64,000 bases of DNA from Pseudidiomarina homiensis (GTDB taxonomy: Bacteria; Pseudomonadota; Gammaproteobacteria; Enterobacterales; Alteromonadaceae): NCBI RefSeq assembly GCF_003987225.1, contig NZ_PIPX01000001.1, positions 1,116,001 through 1,180,000 of the forward strand. Direction: 5' to 3'. Below are positions 17,918 through 60,935 of this stretch, one piece after another. The position numbers were made by a program, and so were the translations under genes. The notes under the pieces were generated by a model that worked only from the letters and a program-made list of their open reading frames with translations, had not been told where the DNA came from and made no database searches. The stretch's first letter is position 1. The number at the start of each line of letters is the position of its first letter.

Positions 17918-18005
17918 GTAACCCGTGGTTCAACCACGGGGTATTTCGAATTCAACCAACATGATCAAAACGTCAGGTTAGACCCGTGGTAGAACCACGG
18001 GCTAC
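17918..18005. repeat. REP pair (inverted), CCCGTGGT-stem type
   Basis: Two REP palindromes facing each other: 17918-17940 (head GTAA, stem CCCGTGGT, loop TCA, stem ACCACGGG) and 17983-18005 in reverse orientation ending in CTAC. They are separated by a ~42-bp linker. They sit between the symporter terminator and the DUF294 gene. Confidence 0.85.
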
Positions 18006-18014
18006 CCATTTACA

Positions 18015-18044
18015 CAAAAAAAAGCCCGGCGGCAGCCGGGCTAT
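18015..18044 (-). terminator. Terminator of the symporter gene
   Basis: Minus-strand stem AGCCCGGC / GCCGGGCT with a four-base loop and an eight-T tail. It lies immediately downstream of the symporter stop, so the DUF294 gene may need read-through or its own promoter near the REP pair. Confidence 0.9.
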
Positions 18045-18048
18045 GCAT

Positions 18049-19764
18049 TTAGTGACTTGACGCGCCGCCCGCTCCTTTCGGATAACGAATCGACTCAACC
18101 AAGTCTTGGGTGTCTTGCGGTGCATCACCGGTGAGCTTATGGACCACGTAGGCAACGATGAAGTTAATCAACATACCTAGAGTACCAATACCCTCTGGTG
18201 AAATACCGAACAGCCAGTTCGCCTCGACGTTCGCTGCTGGATTCACAAACTTGAAGTAAATAATGTACGCCAAGGTGAAGACAATACCAACAACCATACC
18301 AGCGATAGCACCTGTGCTATTCATACGCTTGTAGAAAATACCCATGATGATCGCAGGGAAGAAGCTTGCCGCGGCTAAGCCGAAGGCAAAGGCCACCACC
18401 TGCGCCACGAAGCCTGGCGGATTAATACCAAACCACGTCGACAAAGCGACAGCTACAGCGGCCGCAATCCGCGCCCACATGAGCTCTTGGCGATCCGTGA
18501 TATCGGGGGCCAAGGTGCGCTTCAATAGATCGTGCGAAACGGATGTCGAAATAACCAACAGCAAGCCCGCGGAAGTTGACAATGCAGCAGCGACACCACC
18601 GGCCGCTACAAGCGCCACTACCCAAGCTGGCAAGTCAGCAATCTCCGGATTTGCAAGGACCATAATGTCGCGGTCGACGGTCATTTCATTGCGCTCGTCA
18701 CCCGAGTAGAACATCTTGCCGTCGCCGTTCTCGTCTTCCCAAGAGATTAAGCCGGTTTTTTCCCAGTTCTTAATCCACTCAGGAGCATCAGAATACTCGA
18801 CACCCGTCAATTCTGGGCCATTCACAGTGTTAATCAGATTCACTTTGGCGAACGCCGCAATCGAAGGCGCAGTCAAATAAACCACCGAAATAAACACTAA
18901 CGCCCAACCCGCTGAACGACGTGCATCGCGTACTTTCGGTACGGTGAAGAAGCGTACAATAACGTGCGGCAAGCCAGCAGTACCAACCATCAAGGCACAG
19001 GTAATGGCAAACACGTCAATCTTGTTCCGTACGCCTTCTGTGTAGGCAGCTAAGCCCAACTCTTCAGACAAGCCATCCAAGCGCGCCAGCAAGTAATTAC
19101 CCTCGCCTGCCACACCTTCAGCAATGGTCGCACCAAAGCCGGTTTGCGGCAAAATGTGACCCGTCATGTAAATCGAGATGAAAATCGCTGGAACCAAGTA
19201 CGCAAACGCTAACACGCAATACTGCGCGACTTGGGTATAGGTGATCCCCTTCATGCCGCCAAGTACGGTATAGAAGAACACGATGACTGCGCCGATGAAG
19301 ACACCAGTGGCGATTTCAACTTCTAAGAAGCGCGAAAACACCACACCCACACCGCGCATTTGCCCGGCAATGTAAGTGAACGAAATCAAAATTGCGCAAA
19401 TAACAGCAATGGTACGTGCGGTTTGCGAGTAGTAACGGTCACCGATAAAGTCGGGCACCGTAAACTTACCGAATTTACGTAGGTAAGGTGCTAGGCACAG
19501 TGCCAACAACACGTAACCACCGGTCCACCCCATCAGGTACACACTACCGTCGTACCCAGCAAACGAGATAATCCCTGCCATCGAAATAAACGATGCCGCA
19601 GACATCCAGTCAGCCGCAGTTGCCATACCATTCATCACCGGATGAACACCACCACTGGCAACATAGAAGTCATTGGTAGAACCTGCACGCGACCAAATTG
19701 CAATGGCAATATAGAGGGCGAAAGTCGCGCCAACGATAATAAACGTGAGAGTTTGAATATCCAT
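18049..19764 (-). CDS. Sodium:solute symporter, VC_2705 type (probable acetate/monocarboxylate uptake)
   Basis: 571-residue inner-membrane transporter of the SSS family with about 13 transmembrane helices. Family landmarks are ASGGVHPVMNGMATAADWMSAASFISMAG near the N-terminus and the sodium-site region LPHVIVRFFTVPKVRDARRS. A hydrophilic insert of ~50 residues (about 315-365) is typical of the VC_2705 subfamily. It is preceded at 11 bp by its DUF4212 small partner. The genome neighbourhood (CNMP/CBS/DUF294 protein, CrbS/CrbR and acs further on) supports acetate or a similar short carboxylate as substrate; in Vibrio the orthologous genes belong to the acetate-switch set. The substrate is inferred and not read from the sequence. 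Confidence 0.88.
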   Translation of the reverse strand: MDIQTLTFIIVGATFALYIAIAIWSRAGSTNDFYVASGGVHPVMNGMATAADWMSAASFISMAGIISFAGYDGSVYLMGWTGGYVLLALCLAPYLRKFGKFTVPDFIGDRYYSQTARTIAVICAILISFTYIAGQMRGVGVVFSRFLEVEIATGVFIGAVIVFFYTVLGGMKGITYTQVAQYCVLAFAYLVPAIFISIYMTGHILPQTGFGATIAEGVAGEGNYLLARLDGLSEELGLAAYTEGVRNKIDVFAITCALMVGTAGLPHVIVRFFTVPKVRDARRSAGWALVFISVVYLTAPSIAAFAKVNLINTVNGPELTGVEYSDAPEWIKNWEKTGLISWEDENGDGKMFYSGDERNEMTVDRDIMVLANPEIADLPAWVVALVAAGGVAAALSTSAGLLLVISTSVSHDLLKRTLAPDITDRQELMWARIAAAVAVALSTWFGINPPGFVAQVVAFAFGLAAASFFPAIIMGIFYKRMNSTGAIAGMVVGIVFTLAYIIYFKFVNPAANVEANWLFGISPEGIGTLGMLINFIVAYVVHKLTGDAPQDTQDLVESIRYPKGAGGASSH

Positions 19765-19775
19765 GTCGCGGCCCC

Positions 19776-20042
19776 TTAGTCTTCGTGAACTTCGTATTTA
19801 TTATCAAGCGCCGCCATGCGTTTCACATAAATGAAGATCAACACAACAAACGTGATAATGGAGCCTTGTTGGGCAAACCAAAAGCCCAACTTAAAGCCGA
19901 AAAAGGTAAACTGATTGAGCCAGTCCACCAAGATGATGCCAAATCCATAAGACACTAGAAACCAGACTGCCAACAGCTTAAGTACCAGTCCGATATTCTC
20001 GCGCCAGTAGGCTTTAGCGAGTTCTTCGCTTTTGAAAGCCAT
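19776..20042 (-). CDS. DUF4212 small subunit of the sodium:solute symporter
   Basis: 88 residues with two transmembrane helices (about 20-42 and 52-74). The opening AKAYWRENIGLVLKLLAVWFLVSYGFGIIL and the middle GFKLGFWFAQQGSI are the DUF4212 signature. Members are always encoded directly before VC_2705-type symporters and are taken to be an accessory subunit, comparable in place to YjcH before ActP. The 11-bp gap to the symporter implies co-translation. It has normal length and an intact start. Confidence 0.93.
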   Translation of the reverse strand: MAFKSEELAKAYWRENIGLVLKLLAVWFLVSYGFGIILVDWLNQFTFFGFKLGFWFAQQGSIITFVVLIFIYVKRMAALDNKYEVHED

Positions 20043-20154
20043 AACGCCCTCCAGGTTGTTCTGTTATTTTTTATTGTTGCTTTGTGCATTTAGCAATCTA
20101 GTCGGCAATTGCCTAGCGAGAAATACGACATTGGTCGAAGGCCACTTCATAGCT

Positions 20155-20184
20155 ATAAAAAAACACCGCCGAAGCGGTGTTTTC
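20155..20184 (-). terminator. Terminator of the third S9 peptidase gene
   Basis: Minus-strand stem AAACACCGC / GCGGTGTTT with a CGAA-type tetraloop and T tail. It lies 16-40 bp after the peptidase stop and separates it from the DUF4212-symporter operon, whose promoter must be in 20043-20155. Confidence 0.9.
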
Positions 20185-20197
20185 TTTGGAATCTCGC

Positions 20198-22162
20198 CTA
20201 TTCACCAAGATGTTTGGCAAAGAAGGCCAACATCTTCTGCCAACGTTCAATATTGTTCTCGGGCAAAAAGAAACCATGCCCTTCATCCTCTTTATATAAC
20301 CACTCGTAAGGGTGATTCCGTTCTTTCAAAGCATCACGTAAACGAAATGCATGGGTTTCAGGAACACGTCGATCGGCCCCACCTTGAATGATAAACACCG
20401 GAGCCTTGAGCTTTTCGACATTATGCAGTGGTGACTGAGCTTTGCGTTCTTCCGCTTCAGCTGGCAAGACACGGTTTAAGTAATTACGACCCGCCAACGC
20501 TTGCGGAATGTCGCCCTCTTCAAACATTAAATCAAGGTCATAAACACCCACAAAACCGACAATACATTGGTACTTATCCGGTTCACGAACGCCGCTTTGC
20601 AGCGCCGCATAGCCCCCATAAGAAGCACCGTAGACGCACACGCGATCAGGGTCGACCATACCTTGGTCAATCAGGTAATCCACCCCGTCCGTCATATCGT
20701 CAATCATGGTTGTGCCCCAGTTCTTATAACCGGCCTCAAGAAACTCTCGGCCAAAGCCACCAGAGCCGCGAAAATTCGGTTGTAAGACTGCGTAACCATG
20801 CTCAGCAAATACTTTCGCGTCGCTATCTATCCCCATTAGACTGTCTTTAACGCCATGGGGGCCACCGTGCGGCAATAAAATCAACGGCAAGTTTTCGGCT
20901 TCTTGATCTTTAGGAAGCGTTAAAATGGCCTGAATCTCTCGTCCGTCTCGGCTCTCGTAAATAATAGCTTCTGTCTTCGGGAATTTGTGCTTCGCTAACC
21001 AAGGTCGTGACTCCGCAACAGGAACCAACTTGCCCGCGCTCCGATCAAACATATAGAACGACGGCGATTTGTTGGCTGAGCTAACACTCACAATCAATTT
21101 ACTGTTATCGCGTGTGGCCGAGGTAATACCTACTGCTTGTTCAGGAAAGGTAGCCATTAAGCTTTGTAACAATCGTGAATAGTCAGCGTCTTCAACGTCC
21201 GCAAAAAAGAAACTATCAATCGTCGCATATTCAAATGCCGCACCAATGAGCTCGTTGGCGCGACCATCCTTGATGCTCATAATGGGTAACAGGTCAACGT
21301 TCGGGTGCGTCGCCAGCACGGTCTCCTGACGCTCACTCAAATCCATCACACTCAATGAACGGGTATCGGTTTTGCTGTTGCTCAGGCCGACCACTTGATC
21401 GCTATTTGGCAGCATCCGCAACGGAACAAAACCTCCTTCGTCCGAAGCATAGCTCGTCACTTCATACCATTCTTGATTTGCGCCATCACGCCCTAAAATA
21501 ACGGTTTTGTTATCTTCTTCAGGATCAACACCCACAACCATGCGCGATACCCCGTCACTATCAAGGATTACCGACACATTGGTATTACGATAAGCGCGCA
21601 ATGGGATACGTCCTTCAGAGCGCTTACGTCCAGAATCGATTTTTATGGTATACAAATCAAGGTAGGGTTCTTGTGAGGTAAAACTACGTTGATAAATCAT
21701 CACCGCATCAGGTTCTTGCGGCAAATAATCAACCACTTGCGCGAACACGTATTCACCACTTTTGGAACGCGGCCCAGTCAGAATAATTTGATTCGAGCCA
21801 TCGGCATCCATGGCGAAAATTTCGCCAGTAGCTGCGGGCATTTCCAACGGTCCTACTTCACGCGCCATAGAAAAAATAAGCCGTTCATCATTTGCCCAAT
21901 TAAATGATGCGACGGACTCACCCTCGCGGCCTTGAGTAATACGCAAGATTTCATTGTCATCGATGGCGATAACAGTTAACTGCACAGTACCCTTTTCGGT
22001 TCGCGACGTAGCGGCCAAGTAATCCCCACCTGGGGAAATTTTTACATCTAAATATTGTGACGGACGAGCGTATAGCTCCAGCAGCTCATCGTTAATTTCG
22101 AAGCTCTGCGCAACACTGCTTGAGGTTAGAGCAATCAACCCCAGTAAAATGAATCGTTTCAT
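20198..22162 (-). CDS. Secreted S9 family peptidase (third of three)
   Basis: S9 serine peptidase, 654 residues, start behind AGAGGG. Signal peptide MKRFILLGLIALTSSSVAQS. Residues ~30-390 form a propeller domain. The alpha/beta-hydrolase has LLPHGGPHGVKD, LQPNFRGSGGFG, nucleophile Ser514 in GASYGGY, Asp597 in GGADRRVP and His629 in EGHGF. Much of the catalytic domain resembles the enzyme at 3389-5338 (VCVYGASYGGYAAL against ICIYGGSYGGYASL; VGFVGVYDL against VGYVGVYSL), so the two are likely paralogues, while the one at 12654 is a more distant type. It sits 104 bp downstream of a TonB receptor on the same strand, with a terminator between, a pairing that suggests peptide import and cleavage together. 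Confidence 0.94.
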   Translation of the reverse strand: MKRFILLGLIALTSSSVAQSFEINDELLELYARPSQYLDVKISPGGDYLAATSRTEKGTVQLTVIAIDDNEILRITQGREGESVASFNWANDERLIFSMAREVGPLEMPAATGEIFAMDADGSNQIILTGPRSKSGEYVFAQVVDYLPQEPDAVMIYQRSFTSQEPYLDLYTIKIDSGRKRSEGRIPLRAYRNTNVSVILDSDGVSRMVVGVDPEEDNKTVILGRDGANQEWYEVTSYASDEGGFVPLRMLPNSDQVVGLSNSKTDTRSLSVMDLSERQETVLATHPNVDLLPIMSIKDGRANELIGAAFEYATIDSFFFADVEDADYSRLLQSLMATFPEQAVGITSATRDNSKLIVSVSSANKSPSFYMFDRSAGKLVPVAESRPWLAKHKFPKTEAIIYESRDGREIQAILTLPKDQEAENLPLILLPHGGPHGVKDSLMGIDSDAKVFAEHGYAVLQPNFRGSGGFGREFLEAGYKNWGTTMIDDMTDGVDYLIDQGMVDPDRVCVYGASYGGYAALQSGVREPDKYQCIVGFVGVYDLDLMFEEGDIPQALAGRNYLNRVLPAEAEERKAQSPLHNVEKLKAPVFIIQGGADRRVPETHAFRLRDALKERNHPYEWLYKEDEGHGFFLPENNIERWQKMLAFFAKHLGE

Positions 22163-22201
22163 GTTGCCCTCTACGATTTATTCGACAAAAAATCTATTCG
22201 A

Positions 22202-22229
22202 CAAAAAAGCCCCACCGAGGTGGGGCTTT
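22202..22229 (-). terminator. Terminator of the TonB receptor at 22267-25218
   Basis: Minus-strand stem AAGCCCCACC / GGTGGGGCTT (short loop) ending in six T, 38 bp past the receptor stop. Together with the short leader to 22163 it means the S9 peptidase gene has its own promoter or is fed by read-through. Confidence 0.9.
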
Positions 22230-22266
22230 TATCAGTTCACAACATTCTCGGTGACCGCAGCTTAAC

Positions 22267-34665: not shown

Positions 34666-34873
34666 GTAGCCCGTAGTTCTACCACGGGCCAAATCTCCCA
34701 CATCGAAGATAGTGATTTAATTCAAGTTACCCCGCAGTAGAACTGCGGGCTACGACTCCACATCAACGGTAGCGATTCAAATCAAGTTACCCCGCAGTAG
34801 AACTGCGGGCTACGACTCTACATCAACGATAGCGATTCAAATCAAGTTACCCCGCAGTAGAACTGCGGGCTAC
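34666..34873. repeat. REP cluster: one REP plus three tandem 60-bp units
   Basis: A forward REP at 34666-34688 (GTAG, stem CCCGTAGT with one changed base in the partner arm ACCACGGG) is followed by three reverse REPs of CCCGCAGT type at 34731-34753, 34791-34813 and 34851-34873. The last three sit in near-identical units of exactly 60 bp. The block fills the gap between acs and crbR and begins 2 bp after the acs stop codon. Confidence 0.93.
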
Positions 34874-36860: not shown

Positions 36861-36947
36861 GTAGCCCGTGGTTCTACCACGGGGCCATCTCATTTAACGT
36901 ACATGGTCAAACCTTCCGGTGTGACCCGTGGTGGAACCACGGGTTAC
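36861..36947. repeat. REP pair (inverted), CCCGTGGT-stem type, plus shared 16-mer
   Basis: Forward REP 36861-36883 (GTAG head) and reverse REP 36925-36947 (ending TTAC) with a ~41-bp linker, in the acs-porin intergenic region. The reverse REP runs straight into CGAACAACGAATAACG (36947-36962), an inverted copy of 14633-14648. Confidence 0.9.
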
Positions 36948-38254: not shown

Positions 38255-38340
38255 GTAGCCCGTGGTTCTACCACGGGTTCAATCTGACGTTTGACCATGT
38301 CCGTGGAATTCGAGGCCCCCGTGGTAGAACCACGGGTTAC
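38255..38340. repeat. REP pair (inverted), CCCGTGGT-stem type
   Basis: Forward REP 38255-38277 (GTAG head) begins 4 bp after the porin stop codon; the reverse REP 38318-38340 ends 15 bp before the stop of the convergent GGDEF-EAL gene. As the only structures in this 105-bp convergent gap, they may act as bidirectional transcript ends. Confidence 0.92.
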
Positions 38341-45916: not shown

Positions 45917-47563
45917 TCAATATTCAGCTTGTTCTGGAATCAAGATTTTAAGTGCTCTCGCTTCAAGCGAGACACGCAACTCATCATCGCAGTACACCTC
46001 ACCGTCAATCACATACTTTACTTTAGAACCATCAGCATGGCGAACGATAACCGACTGCGCCTGAGTATGCCCAGTATTCGTGCCGATACTGTCCTCGGTA
46101 AGTCCTGAATAAAGCAGCTCGAGCAAACTCAATACGTTTCGTTCACCAGATTCTTGTGGTTCGAGCCAGGTCAAATCGAGCTTGCCGTCATCCATCATCG
46201 GGTTACCTCGGCCCTGCGCCAACAACGTCGTCAGTGGCGCGGCATTGGCAATAATTAAGCTGCTCGTTTGCCACGTTTCAAATGGCTCGCCGTTCAACGC
46301 CACCTCAAGCTCCATCACTTTATTCTCGTTGACCGCTTGCCATAACCCGCTCAAGTACGCCAGCTGTCCAAGTTTATCTTTAGCCTTGCGATCAGCCTTA
46401 GAAATCATCTGTTCTTCAAAGCCCACCGCAGTGCACAGCAGCATCGGTTGGTCATTCACAATGCCGACATCAACTGCGTGACAGCGCCCCTCAATGACCG
46501 TGGCGCACGCTGCATTAACCGGCGAAATTTTCGAACTCAGACCCCACAATGCCTGGCTCAATGAGTTCGCCGTACCCATTGGAATAATGGCCATGACCAC
46601 ATCGGTATTTCGGAGCACACTTGCTACCTCGGTAAGCGTACCATCACCGCCAACCGCAATGACCAATTCAGCACCCTGTTGCAGCGCAACCTTGGCTTGT
46701 TCTGCAGCACTCGTTTCTTCTGTCGTTTCAAGTACCTTCGTTGCAAAATAAGGCGCTAGAAAGTCGAGTATTTTATCCCGTTCCTGCCCCCATTTGCCGC
46801 CGCCAGAAACTGGGTTTGCGATAATCCATACAGCCTTCGCCAACATAGGTTTATTGCTCGCAGCAAATTTCTCGAGTGCACGCTCTTGCAAACTATTGAG
46901 GCGTGCAATTGAACGCTCACGCTGAATTGACGCCAGCACTTTATCTACGCTCTTTGCATCCGTTCGCATAAGCATATAGGCAGCAACCATGAACACGGAA
47001 CGTCCACGGCCAAGCGCGCAGTGTACCAACACCTTACGGCCTTCATCATGCTGGTGTTGAATCCACTGTAATGCTTCATGAATTTGATGATCGGATGGCG
47101 CAACATGATCAAGCACAGGCAAGTTAAGATACGTCATTTCTGCTTCTTCAGAAGCCCAGTCCAGCGCATCAAACTCAGCCGTCACATCAAGAATCGCACG
47201 GATGCCCTCGTGTTTGAGCTGTTCTACATCAGACGCGAACAAGCGACGACCAACGTACAAGCCATCTGACACTTCATGCCATGCAGCGACGTTATCGCGG
47301 CGGCGCGCCAACCAGTTGTAAATGCTCACGCCAGCTAAGAACGGAAACAGCAACCACCTAATATACCAAGGAATTCTGCCACCTTGCCGCTTACGAAATA
47401 CGCCCGCAATGTTAAACCAATAGGCAGCCGAAATAAGCGACAGCGCCACAACGCACCACAACAACACTACCTTAGCGAGCCAAAAAGGCGTGTAAATGGC
47501 AGCAAACAGCGCCACTAGAGCACCAGCCAAATAAGCCGTTGGAACCTCGGGGCGGATGTGCAT
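45917..47563 (-). CDS. Membrane protein fusing a dual-specificity phosphatase to a diacylglycerol-kinase-like lipid kinase
   Basis: 548 residues from ATG 47563, which has AAGGAG 7 bp upstream; the frame upstream of it only translates hairpin and REP DNA. N-terminal region with three or four transmembrane helices (~1-95). A cysteine phosphatase domain (~105-235) has the active site HCALGRGRS with Cys182. The C-terminal DAGK/LCB5 catalytic domain (~245-548) has NPVSGGGKWG, GGDGTLTEVAS with Asp307 and PMGTANSLSQAL. It should work at the inner membrane on lipids or phosphoinositol-like heads, removing one phosphate and adding another; the real substrates are unknown. It is divergent from cysC. 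Confidence 0.9.
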   Translation of the reverse strand: MHIRPEVPTAYLAGALVALFAAIYTPFWLAKVVLLWCVVALSLISAAYWFNIAGVFRKRQGGRIPWYIRWLLFPFLAGVSIYNWLARRRDNVAAWHEVSDGLYVGRRLFASDVEQLKHEGIRAILDVTAEFDALDWASEEAEMTYLNLPVLDHVAPSDHQIHEALQWIQHQHDEGRKVLVHCALGRGRSVFMVAAYMLMRTDAKSVDKVLASIQRERSIARLNSLQERALEKFAASNKPMLAKAVWIIANPVSGGGKWGQERDKILDFLAPYFATKVLETTEETSAAEQAKVALQQGAELVIAVGGDGTLTEVASVLRNTDVVMAIIPMGTANSLSQALWGLSSKISPVNAACATVIEGRCHAVDVGIVNDQPMLLCTAVGFEEQMISKADRKAKDKLGQLAYLSGLWQAVNENKVMELEVALNGEPFETWQTSSLIIANAAPLTTLLAQGRGNPMMDDGKLDLTWLEPQESGERNVLSLLELLYSGLTEDSIGTNTGHTQAQSVIVRHADGSKVKYVIDGEVYCDDELRVSLEARALKILIPEQAEY

Positions 47564-47577
47564 ATCAATACTCCTTA

Positions 47578-47604
47578 CAAAAGAGAGGGCTGCCCTCCCT
47601 TTTG
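47578..47604. repeat. Hairpin just upstream of the phosphatase-kinase ribosome-binding site
   Basis: Inverted repeat CAAAAGAGAGGG / CCCTCCCTTTTG (one mismatch, 3-base loop) ending next to the AAGGAG of the downstream gene. It resembles the arms of the inverted repeat at 45668-45700, which flanks the other end of the same gene. Confidence 0.75.
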
Positions 47605-47662
47605 TAGCACAAAATGCCGCCGACCTCCCGAATCCGAGTAGCCTACCTCCGACCCGTTTGAA

Positions 47663-47761
47663 GTAGCCCGCAGTTCTACTGCGGGGTATAGTCGACCCGT
47701 TTGAAGTAGCCCGCAGTTCTACTGCGGGGGAGAGTCGACCCGTACTAGAAGTACGGGCTAC
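47663..47761. repeat. REP cluster of three, CCCGCAGT and CCCGTACT types
   Basis: Two forward REPs of CCCGCAGT type at 47663-47685 and 47706-47728 (43-bp period, sharing the linker GTCGACCCGT) and one reverse REP of CCCGTACT type at 47739-47761. They lie in the divergent gap between the lipid-kinase fusion and cysC, 60 bp before the cysC start. Confidence 0.92.
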
Positions 47762-47820
47762 ACATATGTGCCGCATGTCGCTATGATACGGGGCTTGATG
47801 CGCAGAGAGATGCAAAAGAA

Positions 47821-48420
47821 ATGAGCACAAACAATATTGTGTGGCACAACCACCAAGTGGCGCGCGAACGGCGCGCCGCGCAAAAGCAGCAGAAACCTGT
47901 CGTGTTATGGTTCACAGGACTTTCAGGTTCCGGTAAATCGACGATTGCCAATGCCGTCGACGAAATGCTCAATCGTAATGGCAACCACACCTACCTGCTC
48001 GATGGCGATAATATCCGCATGGGCCTCAGCAAAGGCTTGGGGTTCACTGAGGAAGATCGCATCGAAAACATCCGCCGTATCGGCGAAGTCTGTAAGCTTT
48101 TTGCTGACGCTGGGCTGATTGTACTGAGCGCTTTTGTCTCACCCTTTGCCAAAGACCGTGAGCAAGTGCGCGAGCTACAACACGTTAACGAATTTATTGA
48201 AATATTCGTGGATACTCCTTTAGAAACCTGCGAGCAACGCGACCCTAAGGGGTTATACAAAAAGGCTCGTGAAGGCGCGATTCCAAACTTCACGGGGATC
48301 AGCTCACCTTATGAGACTCCCTCGAGCCCTGAAATCCACATCAAAACCGCCGAGTTGAGCATTGAAGATGCCGCCCAGCAGGTTATCGACTACCTACGTA
48401 CTCACGCCTACATCGATTAA
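47821..48420 (+). CDS. cysC: Adenylylsulfate kinase
   Basis: APS + ATP to PAPS + ADP, cytoplasmic; 199 residues, normal length. P-loop GLSGSGKST at 33-41, the APS-binding stretch LLDGDNIRMGLSKGLGFTEEDRIENIRR, VSPFAKDREQVR, and FIEIFVDTPLETCEQRDPKGLYKKAR. It is first gene of cysC-cysQ-(REPs)-cysD-cysN. PAPS is the sulfate donor for sulfotransferases and the substrate of PAPS reductase; no cysH, cysI or cysJ is present in the window. Confidence 0.98.
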   Translation: MSTNNIVWHNHQVARERRAAQKQQKPVVLWFTGLSGSGKSTIANAVDEMLNRNGNHTYLLDGDNIRMGLSKGLGFTEEDRIENIRRIGEVCKLFADAGLIVLSAFVSPFAKDREQVRELQHVNEFIEIFVDTPLETCEQRDPKGLYKKAREGAIPNFTGISSPYETPSSPEIHIKTAELSIEDAAQQVIDYLRTHAYID

Positions 48421-48435: not shown

Positions 48436-49209
48436 ATGCTAAGCCATGACAGCTTAAAAGAACTCGAAGCCATTGCACGCAAAGCCGGTGACGCAATTAT
48501 GAAGATTTATGATGCGCCAGATTTCGAAGCGCGCATTGCGGTGCAGGCCAAAGGTGATGACAGCCCTTTGACTCAGGCTGATTTAGCCGCGCACGAAGTG
48601 ATTAAGGCCGAACTTACCAAGTTATCCGACAGGGCGCTGGCGGCATTACCGCAATTGTCGGAAGAATCGGCCAATATTGACTGGCAAGAACGTCAGCGAT
48701 GGGAAAACTATTGGCTCATCGATCCGCTAGACGGCACGAAAGAATTTATTAAGCGTAACGGCGAGTTCACTGTCAACATCGCACTCATCGAGAAAGGGCA
48801 GCCCGCCGCTGGGGTGGTGTACGCACCAGCGACGCAGACCATGTACAGTGCCGCCGCCGGCAAAGCCTACAAAAATGGCGATGTTATCAAGGCGCGCCAA
48901 GAGGCCGACCCAGCGACGTTGAAAGTTGTTGGTTCGCGCTCGCACGCTTCACCCGACATGCAGGAGTACCTTGATCAACTCGACAAGCCTTATGAAATGG
49001 TGCCAATGGGTAGCTCGCTGAAGTTATGCTTAGTGGCCGAAAGCGAAGCGCACCTGTACCCGCGTCTTGGGCCAACCAGCGAATGGGATACAGCCGCAGC
49101 ACATGCCGTGGCATTAGCAGCGGGGGCGGAGGTGATGACCCTCGACGGTGAACCGCTGCAATACAACCAGAAAGAGTCGCTGTTGAATCCGTACTTCATT
49201 GTGAAGTAG
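48436..49209 (+). CDS. cysQ: 3'(2'),5'-bisphosphate nucleotidase
   Basis: 257 residues of the inositol-monophosphatase superfamily. It hydrolyses PAP (left by PAPS use) to AMP. Metal-binding motifs: EESANI, LIDPLDGTKEFIKRNGEFTVNIALIE and TSEWDTAAAHAVALAAG. It starts 15 bp after cysC. Its stop codon TAG (49207-49209) is part of the GTAG head of a REP at 49206-49228, so the REP provides the end of the protein. Confidence 0.97.
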   Translation: MLSHDSLKELEAIARKAGDAIMKIYDAPDFEARIAVQAKGDDSPLTQADLAAHEVIKAELTKLSDRALAALPQLSEESANIDWQERQRWENYWLIDPLDGTKEFIKRNGEFTVNIALIEKGQPAAGVVYAPATQTMYSAAAGKAYKNGDVIKARQEADPATLKVVGSRSHASPDMQEYLDQLDKPYEMVPMGSSLKLCLVAESEAHLYPRLGPTSEWDTAAAHAVALAAGAEVMTLDGEPLQYNQKESLLNPYFIVK

Positions 49210-49349
49210 CCCGTACTTCTAGTACGGGTCTAACCACCCACCGACTCGGTGCTAGTAACAACCACCCCAGTGAGCCCCGTAGCTCCCCCGCAGTAGAACT
49301 GCGGGCTACATGGATTCCAAACATCCCCCGTAGTAGAACTACGGGCTAC
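49206..49349. repeat. REP cluster of three between cysQ and cysD
   Basis: Forward CCCGTACT-type REP at 49206-49228 (its TAG is the cysQ stop), reverse CCCGCAGT-type at 49287-49309 and reverse CCCGTAGT-type at 49327-49349. Three stem versions in one 187-bp gap that breaks the cys operon into two halves. Confidence 0.92.
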
Positions 49350-51847: not shown

Positions 51848-51849
51848 AA

Positions 51850-53666: not shown

Positions 53667-53832
53667 GTAGCCCGTAGTTCTACTACGGGGTTCGCGTAAA
53701 TCATCGACAATAGCGGAAACGTCAGATTGGCCCCGTGGTAGAACCACGGGCTACGTCCGAGTCCATACACCCCGTGATGGAGCGACCGACGGCGGGCGAT
53801 TCGGGATATCCCGTGGTAGAACCACGGGCGAC
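53667..53832. repeat. REP cluster: 88-bp pair plus a single REP
   Basis: Forward CCCGTAGT-type REP 53667-53689 and reverse CCCGTGGT-type REP 53732-53754 form a unit of 88 bp (53667-53754) that recurs, same length and same linker core (AATCATCGACAAT, AACGTCAGATTGG), at 58487-58574. A further reverse REP with CGAC instead of CTAC tail is at 53810-53832. Confidence 0.93.
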
Positions 53833-53854
53833 GTGCTAGGCTGAATTCGAGGCT

Positions 53855-53867: not shown

Positions 53868-53889
53868 GGCGACAGCATGAGGAAACCCC

Positions 53890-54441
53890 ATGGCGACTAT
53901 CCGCACGACGCCCGAGGAGCTTGCGCGCGCTTTACAGCGCGTGGCCCTTGGCGACCGACAAGCATTTAAAACGCTTTACGGCGCCACTGCCGACAAGCTC
54001 TATTCGGTAAGTTTACATATTTTACGACGCGCCGATTGGGCTGAAGAAGCTCTGCAAGACACCTTTATCAAAGTTTGGCACGGCGCCGGTGACTACTCGA
54101 GCAACCGTGGTTCGGTGATGAGCTGGCTCATCAGTATGATCCGCTACCGCTCCATCGATATGCTGCGCAATAAAAATAACCAGTCGGTGAATGTTGACGA
54201 TCTGCCGGAACTGCAGACCGATACCCAGCTGGATCAGGCCGTTGCCAATAGCGAATATGCGCAACAACTCGAAAACTGCTTGCAAGAACTCCAGCCTGAC
54301 TCACGCCAAAGCATCCAACTCGCCTTCTTATACGGACTTAGTCATAAAGAAGTGAGTGATCACCTGAGCACCGCCTTAGGAACGGTCAAAAGTTGGATCC
54401 GCCGTGGGCTGGATAGTCTCAAGAGGTGCCTGTCAAAATGA
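53890..54441 (+). CDS. ECF RNA polymerase sigma factor (SigK-like)
   Basis: 183 residues, ATG behind GAGGAAACCCC. Region 2 (LYSVSLHILRRADWAEEALQDTFIKVWHGAGDY and SWLISMIRYRSIDMLR) and region 4 (LAFLYGLSHKEVSDHLSTALGTVKSWIRRGLDSLKRCL) are intact; there is no region 3, as usual for ECF sigmas. It heads the operon sigma - anti-sigma - DUF4331 - lipoprotein - TPR - HupE-like. The following gene overlaps its stop (ATGA) and encodes an RskA-like anti-sigma factor, so activity is released by an envelope signal. Likely targets are its own operon; no promoter consensus is known. Confidence 0.93.
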   Translation: MATIRTTPEELARALQRVALGDRQAFKTLYGATADKLYSVSLHILRRADWAEEALQDTFIKVWHGAGDYSSNRGSVMSWLISMIRYRSIDMLRNKNNQSVNVDDLPELQTDTQLDQAVANSEYAQQLENCLQELQPDSRQSIQLAFLYGLSHKEVSDHLSTALGTVKSWIRRGLDSLKRCLSK

Positions 54442-55127: not shown

Positions 55128-55145
55128 AAAAAGTTGCATCCAAAA

Positions 55146-55224
55146 GTTCCTCTCATTCGGAGTTAGTACTGCAGTAGTAAAAAAGCAGTAACAACATGAA
55201 GTAAAACTCCGTAATGAGAGGAAC
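55146..55224 (+). promoter_or_regulatory. Long leader hairpin that covers the DUF4331 ribosome-binding site
   Basis: GTTCCTCTCATTCGGAGTT (55146-55164) pairs with 55205-55224 as 12 + 7 bp with one bulged A. The loop is ~40 nt and itself contains ACTGCAGT. The 3' arm includes AGAGGAA, the ribosome-binding site of the DUF4331 gene (ATG 55230). Formation would hide the site. The pairing is observed; a control role is inference. Confidence 0.6.
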
Positions 55225-55229
55225 TTACA

Positions 55230-56828
55230 ATGAATACAACACAACGTTTTAAAACCCATACCACCGCTGCGGCGGTTGCGGCTGTCATGCTTGGCACCCT
55301 CAGTCACGCAGCTATCGCCTCGAGTCACCGCGAAGCGCCAAATATTACCCGCTTCCCCACGCTCGACTCGACGGACTTTTACGTCTTTAACAGCTACGAG
55401 CCAGGCCGCGAAGGCTATGTAACCTTTTTAGCCAACTATGTGCCGTTACAAGACGCCTACGGTGGCCCGAACTACTTCGCCATGGACCCCGCAGCCGTTT
55501 ATGCGATTCATATCGATAGTGACGGTGACGCCAGCGAAGACTTGAGTTTTGAGTTTCGCTTCCAGCAAGAGTTGCCAAACGGTGGCGTGAAACTCACCAT
55601 TGGTCCAGACGGCAATACGCGCGATGTAAGCGTACCGCTCAAGCACGTCGGTGGGATTAGTGCAGGTGATTCTAGTGCACTGAACTTCAATGAAAGCTAC
55701 ACCTTAGAAGTGGTCGGCAGCAGCGGCTCAAGCAGCACTGTTACCGGTGGTAGCGGCGAAACCGCGTTCACTAAACCCTATGCTTATGTAGGTAACAAAA
55801 CCTTCAGTAGCCCAAGCGCCTATCAAAACTACGCCGATCAGTATGTCTACGACATTTCGATCCCCGGTTGTAGCTCCATGGGCCGCGTGTTCGTTGGTCA
55901 ACGCAAAGACCCGTTCACGGTCAACCTTGGTAAAACTTTTGACCTCGTGAATTACGTTCCAGTGGAAGGTGACAGTGCACCAGGAGCCGGCGACGGCGGT
56001 GGTTTTCCGGGCGGCATCACCCAATCAACTGACAACGACGACTTGCGTGACAAAAACGTCAACACTATCGCCCTTGAAGTACCAGCCTCATGTGTGACCG
56101 GCAGTGGTAATGGCGTGATTGGCGCGTGGACCACGGCGAGCTTGCCACAAGCACGCGTGCTGAATCCTGAAGCCAACTTGGCGAAACCAGAAGTCAACGG
56201 CGGTGCTATGGTGCAGGTCTCACGACTCGGTTCACCATTAGTTAACGAACTCGTGATTGGTATCGACGCTAAAGACACCTTTAGCGGTGCTCATCCAAGC
56301 GACGATGGCCAGTTTGCCGACTATGTTACCCACCCATCCTTGCCAGCGATTTTAGACTTGCTGTTCCGTGATGCGGTGAACAACACCCTTGGTACGAACT
56401 TCGAGACCATCGCGCCAACGAACTTCCCACGCGAAGATCTGGTCGCTGCCTTCTTGACCGGATTCCCCGGCGTCAACCAACAAGCCATGGTGACCGCATC
56501 TGAGATGTTGCGCCTGAACACGGCCATTCCAGCTACGCCAGCCTCGTTGCAGTCGCCGTATGGTGTCGCAGGTGATGACTTAGCGGGCTTCCCAAATGGT
56601 CGCCGTCCAGGTGACGATGTGGTCGATATTGCGCTACGTGTAGTGATGGGCGCTCTGTGTCACGAGATTCCAGTGAATGGCACACCGGTCAACCTTGGCT
56701 ACTGCGCACCAGAAGATGCCAATGTCGGTAACGTACCGTTCACCGATGGCGCACCACTGGATGCTAGTTTCGTTGACGATAGCTTCCCGTACCTAGTAAC
56801 GCCATTGTCAGGTTCAGGCGCGGAATAA
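55230..56828 (+). CDS. DUF4331 exported protein
   Basis: 532 residues. Signal peptide with cleavage near AAIASS; the mature protein begins SSHREAPNITRFPTLDSTDFYVFNSYEPGREGYV, the DUF4331 signature (the SHREAP start and DSTDFY are strongly conserved). The domain spans nearly the whole protein and is beta-rich with Gly/Asp-rich loops. Function is unknown in general; the protein is periplasmic or secreted. It lies in the sigma/anti-sigma operon and is followed within 10 bp by a small lipoprotein. A leader hairpin precedes it. Confidence 0.93.
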   Translation: MNTTQRFKTHTTAAAVAAVMLGTLSHAAIASSHREAPNITRFPTLDSTDFYVFNSYEPGREGYVTFLANYVPLQDAYGGPNYFAMDPAAVYAIHIDSDGDASEDLSFEFRFQQELPNGGVKLTIGPDGNTRDVSVPLKHVGGISAGDSSALNFNESYTLEVVGSSGSSSTVTGGSGETAFTKPYAYVGNKTFSSPSAYQNYADQYVYDISIPGCSSMGRVFVGQRKDPFTVNLGKTFDLVNYVPVEGDSAPGAGDGGGFPGGITQSTDNDDLRDKNVNTIALEVPASCVTGSGNGVIGAWTTASLPQARVLNPEANLAKPEVNGGAMVQVSRLGSPLVNELVIGIDAKDTFSGAHPSDDGQFADYVTHPSLPAILDLLFRDAVNNTLGTNFETIAPTNFPREDLVAAFLTGFPGVNQQAMVTASEMLRLNTAIPATPASLQSPYGVAGDDLAGFPNGRRPGDDVVDIALRVVMGALCHEIPVNGTPVNLGYCAPEDANVGNVPFTDGAPLDASFVDDSFPYLVTPLSGSGAE

Positions 56829-56838
56829 GGAGGACGTT

Positions 56839-57138
56839 ATGAAAAGCTTATTCTCAAAAAGCGCCTTGTTGTTAGTACTCGCTTCGGCGTTTGCCTTGGC
56901 AGGGTGTGGCGGTAGCTCTACTAAAGCTGGCGATGATAACGGTGGAGACGGTGGCGGCGATGGTGGAGGTGGAGGTGACACCAGCACCTCATACCGCCAA
57001 TTCGTTCGCGATGCGTACGCTCAAGCACCAAGTGACATGCCCTTGACCGTCAACGACAAGGAATTCACCTTTGACGTGATGGATACCGCCGAGTTCAACG
57101 ATCTCGTACAAGGAGGTACCATCGATGGCGGCTCATAA
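56839..57138 (+). CDS. Small glycine-rich lipoprotein
   Basis: 99 residues. Lipobox in ASAFALAG-Cys23; then a low-complexity Gly/Asp linker (residues ~32-47) and a C-terminal acidic domain of ~50 residues (YRQFVRDAYAQAPSDMPLTVNDKEFTFDVM...). No family recognised. The start has AGGAGGACGTT upstream. The gene overlaps the next one by 14 bp. It is likely a membrane-anchored partner of the DUF4331 protein. Confidence 0.82.
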   Translation: MKSLFSKSALLLVLASAFALAGCGGSSTKAGDDNGGDGGGDGGGGGDTSTSYRQFVRDAYAQAPSDMPLTVNDKEFTFDVMDTAEFNDLVQGGTIDGGS

Positions 57139-58069
57139 CACACTCATGTGCGTTATTGCCGGTGCGCTGCTCCTGTTCGGGGGCAGCGCCCTTGCCGGCG
57201 AACGTCACCTCAGCGAGCACGGAAGAGAAGACAGCACTCTGCTGCAACAAGCTGACGCATTGCAGTACAACCATGAGTTTGATGCTGCGCTAAAGCTGCT
57301 CTCGCGCATCGTTGCGCAAGGCCAGCATGTGGAACAAGCACGGTTGATGGAGGCACGGATTTTTCTTGCGCAAGGTCGTATTGATGCCGCACGTGAAAGT
57401 TGTGCCGCATTAATGGGAAAAGCTTCGCTAACAATCACTGGTACTTGTTTGCTTGAGGTCAGAGGTCGTGCGGCTTTCTCGGAAAATGACCAACAAACAC
57501 TCGAGCAAACCTATACCCAACTGCAACAACTGGCCGTTCCGCTGCGAGCTGAGCGAAGTGCTCAGATGTCACCAGCGATATTCGTTTGGCAACGTCAGTT
57601 ACTCGCCGAACAAGCCTTTCTGTTAGGGCGCTTTGCAGAAAGCATTCAATGGTTAAGTTATGCCAGCTACAGCGTGCACCCGACCGTGAACCAGATCAGA
57701 CTATTAGATAGTTGGTTGGCGATGCAGCAACCTCAGAAGATCTTCGAAGTGCATGAGGACTGCCCGCAGGTTGGCGAACTGCCAGCTGACAGTATTATTG
57801 TGCGTCTTGCGGCGGCTGAACTTGCGCGAGGTACTGAGGAATGTTGGCAAAAGCTGGCAGCAGAACGCATGGAGATTCGGATCGCACGTGCAGATCCGTT
57901 ACATACCTCTGACCTTGCTTTTTATTTTGTACATGTTGTGCCGAATGCGGCGCAAGCGCAGCAGTATGCTTCGCAAAATTATGCGGTAGCGCGCGAGCCT
58001 GCCGACCAGCGCTTACTCCTTGCTGCGCAGGCATTACCGACTCAACCGGAGACCGCTAATGAAGACTAA
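57125..58069 (+). CDS. Exported TPR-like protein
   Basis: 314 residues, ATG overlapping the lipoprotein 3' end with AAGGAGG upstream. Signal peptide MAAHNTLMCVIAGALLLFGGSALA-GE. The mature part is all-helical with TPR-like hairpins (QADALQYNHEFDAALKLLSRIV, ARLMEARIFLAQGRIDAARES) and a few cysteines. TPR proteins with DUF4331 and HupE-like neighbours occur together in several gammaproteobacteria (as I recall), suggesting one complex, but no function is known. Its last 11 bp overlap the start of the HupE-like gene. Confidence 0.85.
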   Translation: MAAHNTLMCVIAGALLLFGGSALAGERHLSEHGREDSTLLQQADALQYNHEFDAALKLLSRIVAQGQHVEQARLMEARIFLAQGRIDAARESCAALMGKASLTITGTCLLEVRGRAAFSENDQQTLEQTYTQLQQLAVPLRAERSAQMSPAIFVWQRQLLAEQAFLLGRFAESIQWLSYASYSVHPTVNQIRLLDSWLAMQQPQKIFEVHEDCPQVGELPADSIIVRLAAAELARGTEECWQKLAAERMEIRIARADPLHTSDLAFYFVHVVPNAAQAQQYASQNYAVAREPADQRLLLAAQALPTQPETANED

Positions 58070-58490
58070 TTCACTTTCACTGGTGCGGAAGCTGTGCGTT
58101 TGCAGCTTTGCCATTCTGCTTGTTCCTCTGCTTCAGCAAAGTGCCGCAGCACACAGTTTCAGCACCAGTTTTTTAACCCTAAGTGCGCATGAAGACAACG
58201 CACAGTTGCGCTGGAGTTGGCGTTTTACCGCGCATGACATCGAAGCGTTAACCGGCAGCCCGGATGCCGCAGCGGCATTGCCGTTGCTCGGCGAGTGGCT
58301 GCGCTTTAATGACGACTGCCGTCCTGAGCCGAGCACCGCGATCGACGCCGGTGTGCATGCGGGTGAGCAAACCTACACCTACAGCGGCACCGCGCCCTGC
58401 GCGTACAGCACAGACATCGACTACACCGTGCGGCACATCTTCGGCCCCCTGCCCGACCATAAAGTCCTGCAGCGCAAAAGTAGCCCGTAG
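58059..58490 (+). pseudogene. HupE/UreJ-like membrane protein, truncated by a REP
   Basis: 143 residues from ATG 58059 (overlapping the TPR stop). Signal peptide ending QQSAA-AHS; then AHSFSTSFLTL...WSWRFTAHDIEALTG, the N-terminal part of HupE/UreJ_2-type proteins. Those normally continue into six or seven transmembrane helices, all missing here. The frame ends RKSSP with a TAG that belongs to a REP (58487-58509), which itself is preceded by a partial repeat of its GTAGCCC head. After the REP pair a different frame is open for about 24 codons (ending near 58647), which may be leftover coding DNA. Most likely the gene lost its 3' part through a REP insertion or REP-REP recombination. Confidence 0.7.
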
Positions 58491-58574
58491 CCCGTAGTTC
58501 TACTACGGGGTTGGTTCCAATCATCGACAATCGTGGCAACGTCAGATTGGGCCCGTGGTAGAACCACGGGCTAC
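58487..58574. repeat. REP pair, 88-bp unit, near-copy of 53667-53754
   Basis: Forward CCCGTAGT-type REP 58487-58509 and reverse CCCGTGGT-type REP 58552-58574. The linker shares AATCATCGACAAT and AACGTCAGATTGG with the unit at 53667-53754, same total length and same orientation. The two units bracket the sigma/DUF4331 operon. Confidence 0.93.
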
Positions 58575-58652
58575 CAAGCGCGAGCGTGAGTTGACCCGCT
58601 CGGGAATTGCGGGCAACATGAGCGGCACTGTAGCGCAACTGAAATAACAAGC

Positions 58653-59222
58653 ATGAGCAAGACGTATCGTGGCGATCACCGCCTGGGCGAGATTGAGATT
58701 CTGGAAGAAATCAAAGTTTTTGAGAATCGCTTCGCGACTCTTTACAACGACAAAGTTGTTTTTCCTAGCGGGGCCACCGGCGAGTATCTACGTTTTTGGT
58801 GGAACGCTCCGTATGGCGTGCTTATTATCGCAACCACCGCGCAACACCAGCTCCTACTGCTCCGCAACTTTCGTCATGAAGACCGCAACTGGCAGTGGGA
58901 GATCCCAAAAGGTTTTGGTGAACCAGAGCTTACCCCCGAAGCCTGCGCCGCAAAAGAGCTGCACGAAGAAACAGGCTTCGCTGCCAGCAGTTGGCACAAG
59001 CTGCACACGCTCGACACACATGGCACGCCAACCCACGTTTTCCGTGCGACGCTAGCCGCTGAACAACTTGCCTCGCCGGAAACGTCTGAAGCCATCGCAC
59101 AAGCCAAATTATGCAGCGTAGACGAATGCCGCCAGCTGATTGCTGCCGGCCAAGTTCACGATCCCATCACCTTGTACGCGATCACCCTGCTAGAGCTCGA
59201 GCAAGTGCAACAGCAGGCCTAA
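58653..59222 (+). CDS. NUDIX hydrolase (ADP-ribose/NudE-like)
   Basis: 189 residues. Nudix box G87-F109 with core KELHEETGF: the catalytic glutamates are present, while position 7 is Leu and the usual Arg is Lys. LLLLRNFRHEDRNWQWEIPKGFGEPELTPEACAA upstream of it is typical of ADP-ribose pyrophosphatase-like enzymes including NudE. It should hydrolyse nucleoside diphosphate-X compounds in the cytosol. NudE genes often neighbour cysQ; here cysQ is 9 kb away. Its 3' end overlaps the next convergent gene by 4 bp. Confidence 0.88.
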   Translation: MSKTYRGDHRLGEIEILEEIKVFENRFATLYNDKVVFPSGATGEYLRFWWNAPYGVLIIATTAQHQLLLLRNFRHEDRNWQWEIPKGFGEPELTPEACAAKELHEETGFAASSWHKLHTLDTHGTPTHVFRATLAAEQLASPETSEAIAQAKLCSVDECRQLIAAGQVHDPITLYAITLLELEQVQQQA

Positions 59223-60523
59223 GAGCTCGCAACTACCGAGGTATACACCGTTTCTGGCCGCTCACTCAGGCGCCGCTCCGCACCAATTTTTTCATCTTGT
59301 TGCGAACGCTCTAACTGCGCCGCATACAAATGCCGTTCAGCATCCAGTTTCCGCTGGTCACGCTCATGCATTTTATCCAGCACCGAGCCGACAAAGAAGT
59401 TCGCCATGGTCAGCGCTCCGCCAGTCAACGCATCACCAGTGAGCGCCAAGCCAAGTGAGTAAGCGCCAGCCTCTTGGCCGACTTTACGCATGCTCTGCAA
59501 ATGCCGATAAACCTTCTCAGCACGTCGTAATTTAATGCCAAGTTTGCGCCGAATAATCATGTTATCAATCAAGCGCTGATACACAATTAGCGCTTCCGTC
59601 ACTTCGCGCAGTTCATCTTCGTTACGGACCGGATTTTTACTGCGCTTTTGGTAATCTTTGTATTCAGGCGTACTGCGTAAATAAAACACGTCTTCCAGCT
59701 GCAATTGCGCCAACGCCTGTTGATAAGAGCTCAAGTTCAAGTCGGTTTGTAGTGCCAGTACCGAGGTGACTTCAGTGGCTGTTGCCGCAGTTGTCGCATC
59801 GGTGCCGGTGACGAGGTTAAAGGCTTCTTCGTGCAACGGTGAATAAATCGGGTCCGCCGCCATCACGGTAGGAATGCCGGTAATATACGGTGCATCAGAA
59901 ATTTTCATTAGCAAATCGCGGTGGCGCGCCCACGTTTCGGCGTGGCCGTTAGCGGTCAAATCGGCGCCTAATCCTTGCTGTAAGTAAATACGTCCGAGCC
60001 CTTGGTTACGCTCGCTTTCTTGATTTAAGAGTTCGACGATATAGGCATGGTCATCGATGCCAAACTGCCCCATCACGTGGGGTAGATTCATGATGCGCAT
60101 CACGCCGTTGGTGTAATTGTCGCGAAGCTGGGTGTAGTTGTAGAGTGCGATTTCACAGCGTGAATTGATCAGTTCAAGATCGTCATTGGCTTGGAATTCA
60201 TCAGCATTTTGGGTGCGCTGCTTACCCTCAGCAACAAAGGCATCACGTACTTGAGTTAACGCATGTCCTTGTGGTGCATCGTCTGGTGCGCGTACCGCGA
60301 CCGACAAAATATCTTTGTTCAAGACTTGGCGAAAGTCTTCATTTTTGGTCAGTAGGCGGCGGAAATTCATGCAATTGACGGCTTGTGCATCAGAGAGCAT
60401 CAGTTTCTCATTGAACAGCAGCGCATGCTTGAAATAGCTGGCGAAGCTATCGAGTTTGCTATGATCCCACGCCAGCGGCACTTCAGTGTCCGCGAGCATC
60501 CAATACGATGGGGCTTGTTTCAT
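59219..60523 (-). CDS. Conserved-looking protein of unknown function
   Basis: 434 residues from ATG 60523 (AAGGAA 5 bp upstream); the longer frame runs into REP DNA. No signal peptide and no certain transmembrane helix; the Ala/Gly-rich stretch at ~370-390 (SLGLALTGDALTGGALTMANFF) may be a membrane-active or glycine-zipper-like segment. Mostly helical with a charged C-terminal helix (DKMHERDQRKLDAERHLYAAQLER). No family recognised. Residues 1-30 (SYWMLADTEVPLAWDHSKLDS) are rich in aromatics. It lies alone between nudix and REP array. Composition resembles the neighbours, so no sign of recent transfer. Confidence 0.75.
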   Translation of the reverse strand: MKQAPSYWMLADTEVPLAWDHSKLDSFASYFKHALLFNEKLMLSDAQAVNCMNFRRLLTKNEDFRQVLNKDILSVAVRAPDDAPQGHALTQVRDAFVAEGKQRTQNADEFQANDDLELINSRCEIALYNYTQLRDNYTNGVMRIMNLPHVMGQFGIDDHAYIVELLNQESERNQGLGRIYLQQGLGADLTANGHAETWARHRDLLMKISDAPYITGIPTVMAADPIYSPLHEEAFNLVTGTDATTAATATEVTSVLALQTDLNLSSYQQALAQLQLEDVFYLRSTPEYKDYQKRSKNPVRNEDELREVTEALIVYQRLIDNMIIRRKLGIKLRRAEKVYRHLQSMRKVGQEAGAYSLGLALTGDALTGGALTMANFFVGSVLDKMHERDQRKLDAERHLYAAQLERSQQDEKIGAERRLSERPETVYTSVVASS

Positions 60524-60935
60524 CAAAATTCCTTGGCTCTTCAATTTATAACGCACCAGCAGTGTAGCCCGTACTTCTAGTACGGGGGGCGCATCAACCA
60601 TCCCCCGCAGTAGAACTGCGGGCTACGTCACAACGCACCAGCAGTGTAGCCCGTACTTCTAGTACGGGGGGCGCGTCAACCATCCCCCGCAGTAGAACTG
60701 CGGGCTACGTCACAACGCACCAGCAGTGTAGCCCGTACTTCTAGTACGGGGGGCGCATCAACCATCCCCCGCAGTAGAACTGCGGGCTACGTCACAACAC
60801 ATCAGCAGTGTAGCCCGTACTTCTAGTACGGGGGGCGCATCAACCATCCCCCGCAGTAGAACTGCGGGCTACGTCACAGGGTCGAAATCGGTTATGCTAG
60901 CAGGCAGACAACATTAGGTATACTAGGGAATAACA
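60524..60935. other. 412-bp divergent region filled by the REP array
   Basis: Contains the four-unit array (60564-60872) and, at 60873-60935, the leader and presumed promoter of the ATP-grasp gene. No gene seen. Confidence 0.7.
60564..60872. repeat. Tandem array: four 82-bp units, each a pair of opposed REPs
   Basis: Forward CCCGTACT-type REPs begin at 60564, 60646, 60728 and 60810; reverse CCCGCAGT-type REPs begin at 60604, 60686, 60768 and 60850, so the period is exactly 82 bp. Units are almost identical, differing only in a few linker bases (GCGCATC/GCGCGTC; CAACGCAC/CAACACAT), so amplification was recent. Each unit pairs two different stem versions. Confidence 0.95.

Follow-up and report, generated by a model that had tools for sequence, protein, structure and literature searches.

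GTAG-class families of repetitive extragenic palindromes (REPs), which include the SMAG repeats of S. maltophilia, have already been published with covarying stem subfamilies, heterodimers and heads that supply stop codons (PMC3733652; this and the other papers cited here are drawn on in part). Most families in that account are spread throughout the genome, the exception being GTAG-23 of T. roseum, which occurs in blocks at a few loci. In P. fluorescens SBW25, three REP groups occur with three REP-associated tyrosine transposases (RAYTs, or TnpA-REP), each linked to one group, and the REP doublets are random in extragenic space (PMC3116915). E. coli has one RAYT, several subfamilies (Y, Z1 and Z2) and heterotypic pairs in its bacterial interspersed mosaic elements (BIMEs) (PMC8266576, PMC6006769), and in nearly half of one sample more than one REP subfamily lies beside the TnpA-REP gene (PMC6006769). 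The spread of REPs has yet to be explained, and the papers cited here portray them as dispersed through the genome. Here we describe a GTAG-type REP family in a 64,000-nucleotide stretch of Pseudidiomarina homiensis (the window; contig 1, 1116001-1180000), together with the one RAYT gene found in that genome. Our best reading, to which we give a probability of roughly 0.6 as a whole, is that the hairpins are the ends of REPINs (REP doublets forming hairpins), each composed of a GTAG hairpin, an oriented spacer usually of 42 bp and an inverted hairpin, and that one RAYT, working mostly close to its own gene, moves these units.

The family resembles the SMAG type in its GTAG head, short perfect hairpin, small loop, head-out dimers and conserved spacer, and likewise in its complementary changes between stem subfamilies, its heterodimers and its heads that give TAG stop codons. 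Unlike those of most families in PMC3733652, with which it was compared by their description, its copies crowd around the RAYT. A REP doublet as the unit, repeats beside the RAYT and a REP group linked to each RAYT are shared with the REPIN-RAYT system of SBW25 (PMC3116915), but in P. homiensis one RAYT accompanies several stem versions, whose copies form a zone. As in E. coli (PMC8266576, PMC6006769), a single RAYT accompanies several subfamilies and heterotypic pairs, although the E. coli REPs are long and bulged (group 2), whereas in P. homiensis the stems are perfect and 8 bp long, which is the group-3 form. Insertion sequences (ISs) that hop locally are also found near their origin (PMC4369082), but those elements are self-mobile and their similarity falls with distance, whereas here a stationary transposase gene is accompanied by dispersed, non-autonomous repeats that show no fall beyond 2 kb. 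Covarying stem subfamilies, heterodimers, stop-codon heads and several subfamilies beside one TnpA-REP gene are known already; a RAYT-centred REP zone was not found reported in the open-access literature searched, subscription papers lying largely outside the search.

A GTAG-class REP family and its RAYT

The hairpins have the form GTAG-CCCGxxxT-TCT-Ax'x'x'CGGG, and 30 of them make up nine clusters between window positions 17918 and 60872. The pattern CCCGNNNT-NNN-ANNNCGGG matched 58 times on the two strands (29 palindromes), compared with 0-2 times in 30 dinucleotide-preserving shuffles. The initial annotation of the window, made from its sequence alone, had described just such short GTAG-headed palindromes with a TCT loop and four stem middles, TGG, TAG, CAG and TAC, with a partner arm that matches in nearly all copies. 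This description was confirmed, since the middle triplet is fully paired in 28 of the 30 hairpins (9 TGG, 10 CAG, 3 TAG and 6 TAC); the exceptions are the copy at 34666, in which TAG faces CCA, and a degenerate copy at 58595. That the palindromes sit solely between genes was correct for most copies. Four of the 30 fall inside the crude-caller open reading frames (ORFs) 45917-47830 and 59219-60601 (minus strand), close to 5′ ends that the caller has probably over-extended. In the 330-kb region around the RAYT, which served as the sample for copy-level counts (142 REP copies), 24 of 137 copies fall within crude ORF calls. The GTAG foot, the high copy number and the mainly intergenic position are those of a GTAG-class REP, and the occurrence of inverted doublets with a conserved spacer is that of a REPIN.

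The genome (2.61 Mb, six contigs, 99.95% complete) contains a sole Y1 transposase gene, on contig 1 at 1244758-1245306, 65 kb past the end of the window. The initial annotation had placed no RAYT in the window and supposed one or several elsewhere; the absence from the window and the presence of one elsewhere agree with this result. The product matched the RAYT model NF047646 with 151.3 bits (cut-off 80), and H59, H61, Y132, N136 and P137 are invariant in eight aligned RAYTs; these residues form the HuH pair and the Y---NP motif that are the signature of the class (PMC6006769). REPs lie on both sides of the gene within about 0.5 kb: CAG copies flank it directly, and TAG and TGG copies adjoin them. 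The downstream CAG REP supplies, through the TAG of its GTAG head, the stop codon of the RAYT. The single copy, the gene neighbours shared with relatives and the score against the IS200 model (33.3 bits, below the cut-off of 55) do not fit an insertion sequence of the IS200/IS605 type, whose transposase gene is itself mobile and multicopy. Among the best 80 of 570 loci, from which the RAYT loci of I. fontislapidosi and Massilia sp. 9I were taken and in which very near records may be left out, the closest named RAYT was that of I. fontislapidosi (54%).

An intact RAYT match was present in eight genomes of the genus sample (26 genomes, P. homiensis included) and a broken one in G002. In P. homiensis and the seven relatives with an intact match, REPs again lie on both sides of the gene within about 0.5 kb, and the flanking stems vary by species (CAG/TAG/TGG, TAC/TAG, TGG, GCG and CCTG-ACG). 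The eight RAYT genomes contain 130, 133, 45, 36, 22, 22, 10 and 0 exact copies of the P. homiensis pattern; the genome with none, G020, has 60 copies of its own stem type. G002 has 19 copies, and the 17 genomes without a RAYT match have 51, 15, 8, 6, 2, 2, 1, 1 and, in nine cases, 0.

Paired stems and the REPIN unit

Genome-wide, the 151 exact copies comprise 77 TGG, 37 CAG, 27 TAG, 9 TAC and 1 CAC, and the sequences form two series, TGG-TAG-CAG and TAG-TAC-CAC, in which neighbours are one base pair apart. Paired changes occur in copies beyond the window as well; an absence of such changes genome-wide, like an absence of any RAYT gene, had been named beforehand as a result that would speak against the initial annotation. 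The middle triplet is unmatched in only 3 of the 142 copies of the 330-kb region; the head is GTAG in 112 of them, and GTAC or GTAA in most of the others. A covariation test on the ten distinct rows of the window found 95% of cells paired, against a shuffled mean of 87.5%, both-sided change in three of the eight stem pairs, and a covariation score of 0.217 compared with 0.096. For the share of paired cells, the count of both-sided cells and the score, none of 500 shuffles came up to the observed value. Weaker measures were reached more often, the number of both-sided pairs by 32 of 500 shuffles and further pair types by 459 of 500. The covariation indicates that pairing matters. It does not by itself prove the selection of the hairpin that had been deduced from the compensatory changes, because templated correction of one arm or gene conversion would look alike.

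Paired changes arising by such quasipalindrome repair or gene conversion, with no selection on the hairpin, can be judged against G018, the sister strain of P. homiensis (96.1% identity). The two strains share 43 clusters, of which 18 differ in copy number and six in stem version, and the strict comparison aligned 116 of the 142 copies, of which 51 passed (the copies at 1186567 and 1334516 look misaligned and were not counted as changes). At 1165327, the TAG copy of the cluster at window positions 49206..49349, both arms differ between nearly identical flanks, the stem being TAG in P. homiensis and CAG in G018, which is what correction of one arm by the other would produce. This is, however, the only clean in-place switch of both arms among the 51 comparable copies, which also contain six clean single-arm changes left uncorrected, and the other changes of stem lie in mosaic or diverged stretches. 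Furthermore, the published enzymes weaken on mispaired stems (PMC8266576, in the part used here), so selection through the substrate is expected anyway. We consider correction without selection unlikely to be the explanation.

In the 330-kb region, 50 head-out pairs hold 100 of the 142 copies. Their commonest spacer is 42 bp, exactly so in 24 of the 50 pairs, and it is oriented: its B end resembles TCCAACCTGACG and its A end TTGAATTCGGCATAC. Alignment to two consensus spacers allowed 38 of the 50 pairs to be oriented and left 12 that could not be. The two ends carry different stems in 18 of the 38 oriented pairs, and CAG is confined to the A end in all 12 oriented pairs that contain it (Fisher P 1.7e-4, with some dependence among tandem copies). 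Heterotypic units also occur beyond these 42-bp pairs, since the tandem array at window positions 60564-60872 joins TAC with CAG, and G020 joins CGG with ACG. Two hairpin types surround the RAYTs of I. fontislapidosi and of genome G047. The flanks of the former carry GTCGCGC-stemmed and CGTGCGC-stemmed hairpins.

These units bear on the number of transposases involved. The initial annotation had raised the possibility of several RAYTs, each reading one stem version, and one could suppose that every version is a separate REP family whose own RAYT is present or was lost, the versions representing successive waves. The stem type does change between species along with the RAYT, and none of the seven TAC copies on contig 1 lies within 50 kb of the P. 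homiensis RAYT, yet TAC flanks the RAYT of G003; some versions may thus be relics of an earlier specificity. Against separate families, a genome that is 99.95% complete yielded one match, so several RAYTs in P. homiensis were rejected. Since CAG, TAG and TGG all flank that sole RAYT and single REPINs carry two stems, one RAYT per stem is not needed, and we regard separate families as quite improbable.

The preferred reading is that a single RAYT would move REPINs, as short non-autonomous units, in the form of single strands. The protein would recognise the GTAG head, the stem base and, along with the leading loop T, the T-A pair. It would require a paired stem, while the middle pairs would be free. 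In the six relatives tallied, the perfect-stem copies have a loop that starts with T, and the stem foot CC[CT]G and the T-A top pair recur as the middle triplet varies. A stem could then change by single base pairs (TGG-TAG-CAG, TAG-TAC) and remain a substrate of that protein, whereas mispaired copies would be mostly dead ends. In the published assays of group-3 TnpA-REP proteins, as far as they are used here, GTAG and certain loop bases were needed, a stem mismatch was harmful and block changes that kept the pairing were milder (PMC8266576). One enzyme that would read the head, the loop and intact pairing fits this biochemistry. The clusters of the window are given in Table 1.

Table 1. REP clusters in the window, with the one tRNA gene (window coordinates; the middle triplet names the stem, the sign its strand)
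Position	Feature	Remark
5365..5438	tRNA gene	Sole Rfam match in the window at gathering scores
17918..18005	Head-out REP pair TGG(+)/TGG(-)	42-bp spacer
34666..34873	Mispaired TAG/CCA(+), then three tandem CAG(-)	
36861..36947	Head-out REP pair TGG(+)/TGG(-)	41-bp spacer
38255..38340	Head-out REP pair TGG(+)/TGG(-)	40-bp spacer
47663..47761	REP cluster CAG(+), CAG(+), TAC(-)	Within 5′ part of crude ORF 45917-47830 (minus)
49206..49349	REP cluster TAC(+), CAG(-), TAG(-)	Head TAG of first copy is stop codon of ORF 48436-49209
53667..53832	Heterotypic pair TAG(+)/TGG(-), and TGG(-) with head GTCG	42-bp spacer in the pair
58487..58617	Heterotypic pair TAG(+)/TGG(-), and degenerate copy at 58595	Head TAG of first copy is stop codon of ORF 58020-58490
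60564..60872	Four tandem 82-bp units, each TAC(+)/CAG(-)	17-bp spacer; a single unit at the corresponding site in G018

Crowding of REPs around the RAYT

Contig 1 (1.9 Mb) holds 142 of the 151 exact copies, and 105 of these lie within 100 kb of the RAYT, where 14.9 are expected. When copies were merged into sites at 500 bp, 37 of 59 sites lay within this distance, compared with 6.2 expected. Sites within 100 kb of the RAYT likewise exceeded expectation in G011 (28 observed, 6.8 expected), G020 (11, 1.7), G007 (15, 3.1), G010 (13, 2.2), G003 (9, 2.7) and I. fontislapidosi (13, 3.5). Of the seven genomes, P. homiensis included, six reached the lowest P value that the test allows, 5e-5; in G003 it was 7e-4. 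Because the patterns had been built from RAYT-flanking REPs, the test was repeated after removal of sites less than 2 kb from the RAYT, and P was still at most 0.0055. The test takes copies on the RAYT contig only (64 of 80 in G011, 50 of 60 in G020, 34 of 42 in G007, 31 of 35 in G010, 20 of 45 in G003 and 29 of 45 in I. fontislapidosi), covers G003 through its TCT-loop copies only, and omits G019 (91 copies) and G018, which is a near repeat of P. homiensis. Such crowding of copies around one RAYT points to an enzyme whose activity is largely confined to the part of the chromosome surrounding its gene. Such action on DNA near the gene might reflect cis preference or local hopping, and new REPs, together with renewal in gaps that already hold REPs, would concentrate within about 100-150 kb on either side of the RAYT.

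A different account is that the zone is a permissive or attractive chromosome region in which the RAYT lies by chance. Part of the REP-bearing region is syntenic among P. homiensis, G011 and G020; gaps with REPs are common to G011 and P. homiensis, as described below; and the RAYT of G020 occupies another place in the same region, where the stretches on its two sides correspond to 1.150-1.154 and 1.133-1.144 Mb of P. homiensis. An origin or terminus was rejected as the cause, as the GC skew is negative in all 33 of the 10-kb bins of the P. homiensis region and shows no switch. Extra gene-gap space was also rejected, the density of gaps being only slightly higher inside the region (3.55 per 10 kb) than in 21 samples elsewhere (3.21). 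Finally, I. fontislapidosi has its own zone at a RAYT locus whose flanks show no synteny with the P. homiensis region except for the RAYT itself and a short response-regulator-like match. We therefore think a purely regional cause unlikely.

The gene neighbours of the RAYT were compared in the same genomes. The neighbourhood of P. homiensis, with genes that we take from their protein sequences to be hslO, hslR and der, recurs in G003 and G007, and in G010, G011 and G019 the RAYT lies amid stretches homologous to these genes, among the matches listed. Also among the matches listed, the RAYT and hslR are arranged in different order and orientation from one relative to another in this neighbourhood (G019, G011). 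Short segments around the RAYT and hslR have perhaps been inverted between inverted REPs.

The hairpins might instead be ordinary terminators or RNA-stability elements kept for the host. They do sit in gene gaps, and the TAG of the head is the stop codon of a gene in 18 of 137 copies of the P. homiensis region and in 18 of 56 in G011, though in merely 1 of 43 in G020. However, the copy listing shows no T-run after the stem in nearly all copies (the exception is at 1210927; no dedicated terminator scan was made), and convergent gaps are not clearly favoured, with 9 of 51 clusters compared with 35 of 290 gaps. Moreover, a host role would give neither crowding around one gene nor oriented paired units, and we consider it highly improbable.

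Several observations weigh against the reading of REPINs moved by one RAYT near its own gene. That one enzyme would serve all four stem versions is a step that we infer. The RAYT is close to the best centre of each zone but does not coincide with it, being 2-44 kb away and ranking among the top 0.7-5.3% of possible centres. The chromosome region is broadly similar for six of the seven zones, or is taken as similar from the neighbours of the RAYT, so that the case against a regional cause depends mainly on I. fontislapidosi, with 29 of 45 copies on one contig. In Massilia sp. 9I, in which two RAYTs among the best 80 of 570 loci were used and further ones may exist, the repeats spread over the chromosome: 9 of the 48 sites are within 100 kb, where 3.5 are expected (P 0.12), or 5 of 44 without the RAYT-flanking sites (P 0.41). 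Of the 13 copies in G047, 7 are found no more than 1.2 kb from the RAYT, and the remaining six are scattered. Because these two genomes show no zone, it is not a rule for all RAYTs. G016 has no RAYT match yet holds 51 exact copies; its gene may be hidden in an assembly gap, since some of its REP copies sit at contig ends (several are 250 bp or less from a contig start). For copies more than 2 kb apart, spacers diverge no further with increasing separation (Mantel r 0.02, P 0.36), which counts against simple stepwise local hopping, although over all pairs isolation by distance had a P of 0.045. No insertion polymorphism between P. homiensis and G018 was found in the 43 clusters mapped out of 53, nor, in the reverse direction, in 45 mapped out of 52.

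Within the P. homiensis zone, neighbouring clusters are alike (P 0.0015). The TGG fraction is 0.84 in the outer clusters (n=20) compared with 0.37 in those at 1.145-1.275 Mb (n=31), the limits having been picked after the list was viewed.

Turnover at fixed gene gaps and its meaning

The REPs of G011 have a GCG stem and a spacer unlike that of P. homiensis, and they nevertheless occupy shared places. Among gaps conserved between the two genomes, a REP is also present in P. homiensis at 7 of the 11 that bear one in G011, compared with 6 of 64 that are REP-free (P 2e-4), and looser mapping by flanks placed 17 of 25 mapped clusters (of 33) at REP-bearing gaps. The conserved gaps of G020 showed no such excess, with one of two REP-bearing gaps shared with P. 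homiensis (P 0.40) and none of one with G011; in the looser mapping the figure was four of six mapped clusters (of 13). Gaps that already hold a REP may attract new units, or new REPs may replace the old ones. A stronger form of the preferred reading would make the RAYT of this bacterial group an editor bound to its neighbourhood, renewing REPs at fixed gap addresses within about 100-150 kb, so that the zone moves with the gene; we put this forward tentatively and hold it to be possible but doubtful. If it were true, sister species would keep different stem families at the same sites.

A RAYT-centred zone provides spatial evidence that the RAYT drives the REPs, and it hints at the distance over which the enzyme acts. 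In the mixed-stem units, a prediction of the published biochemistry becomes visible at the sequence level, namely that pairing is required and that the middle of the stem is free, and they caution against equating stem versions with separate transposase systems.

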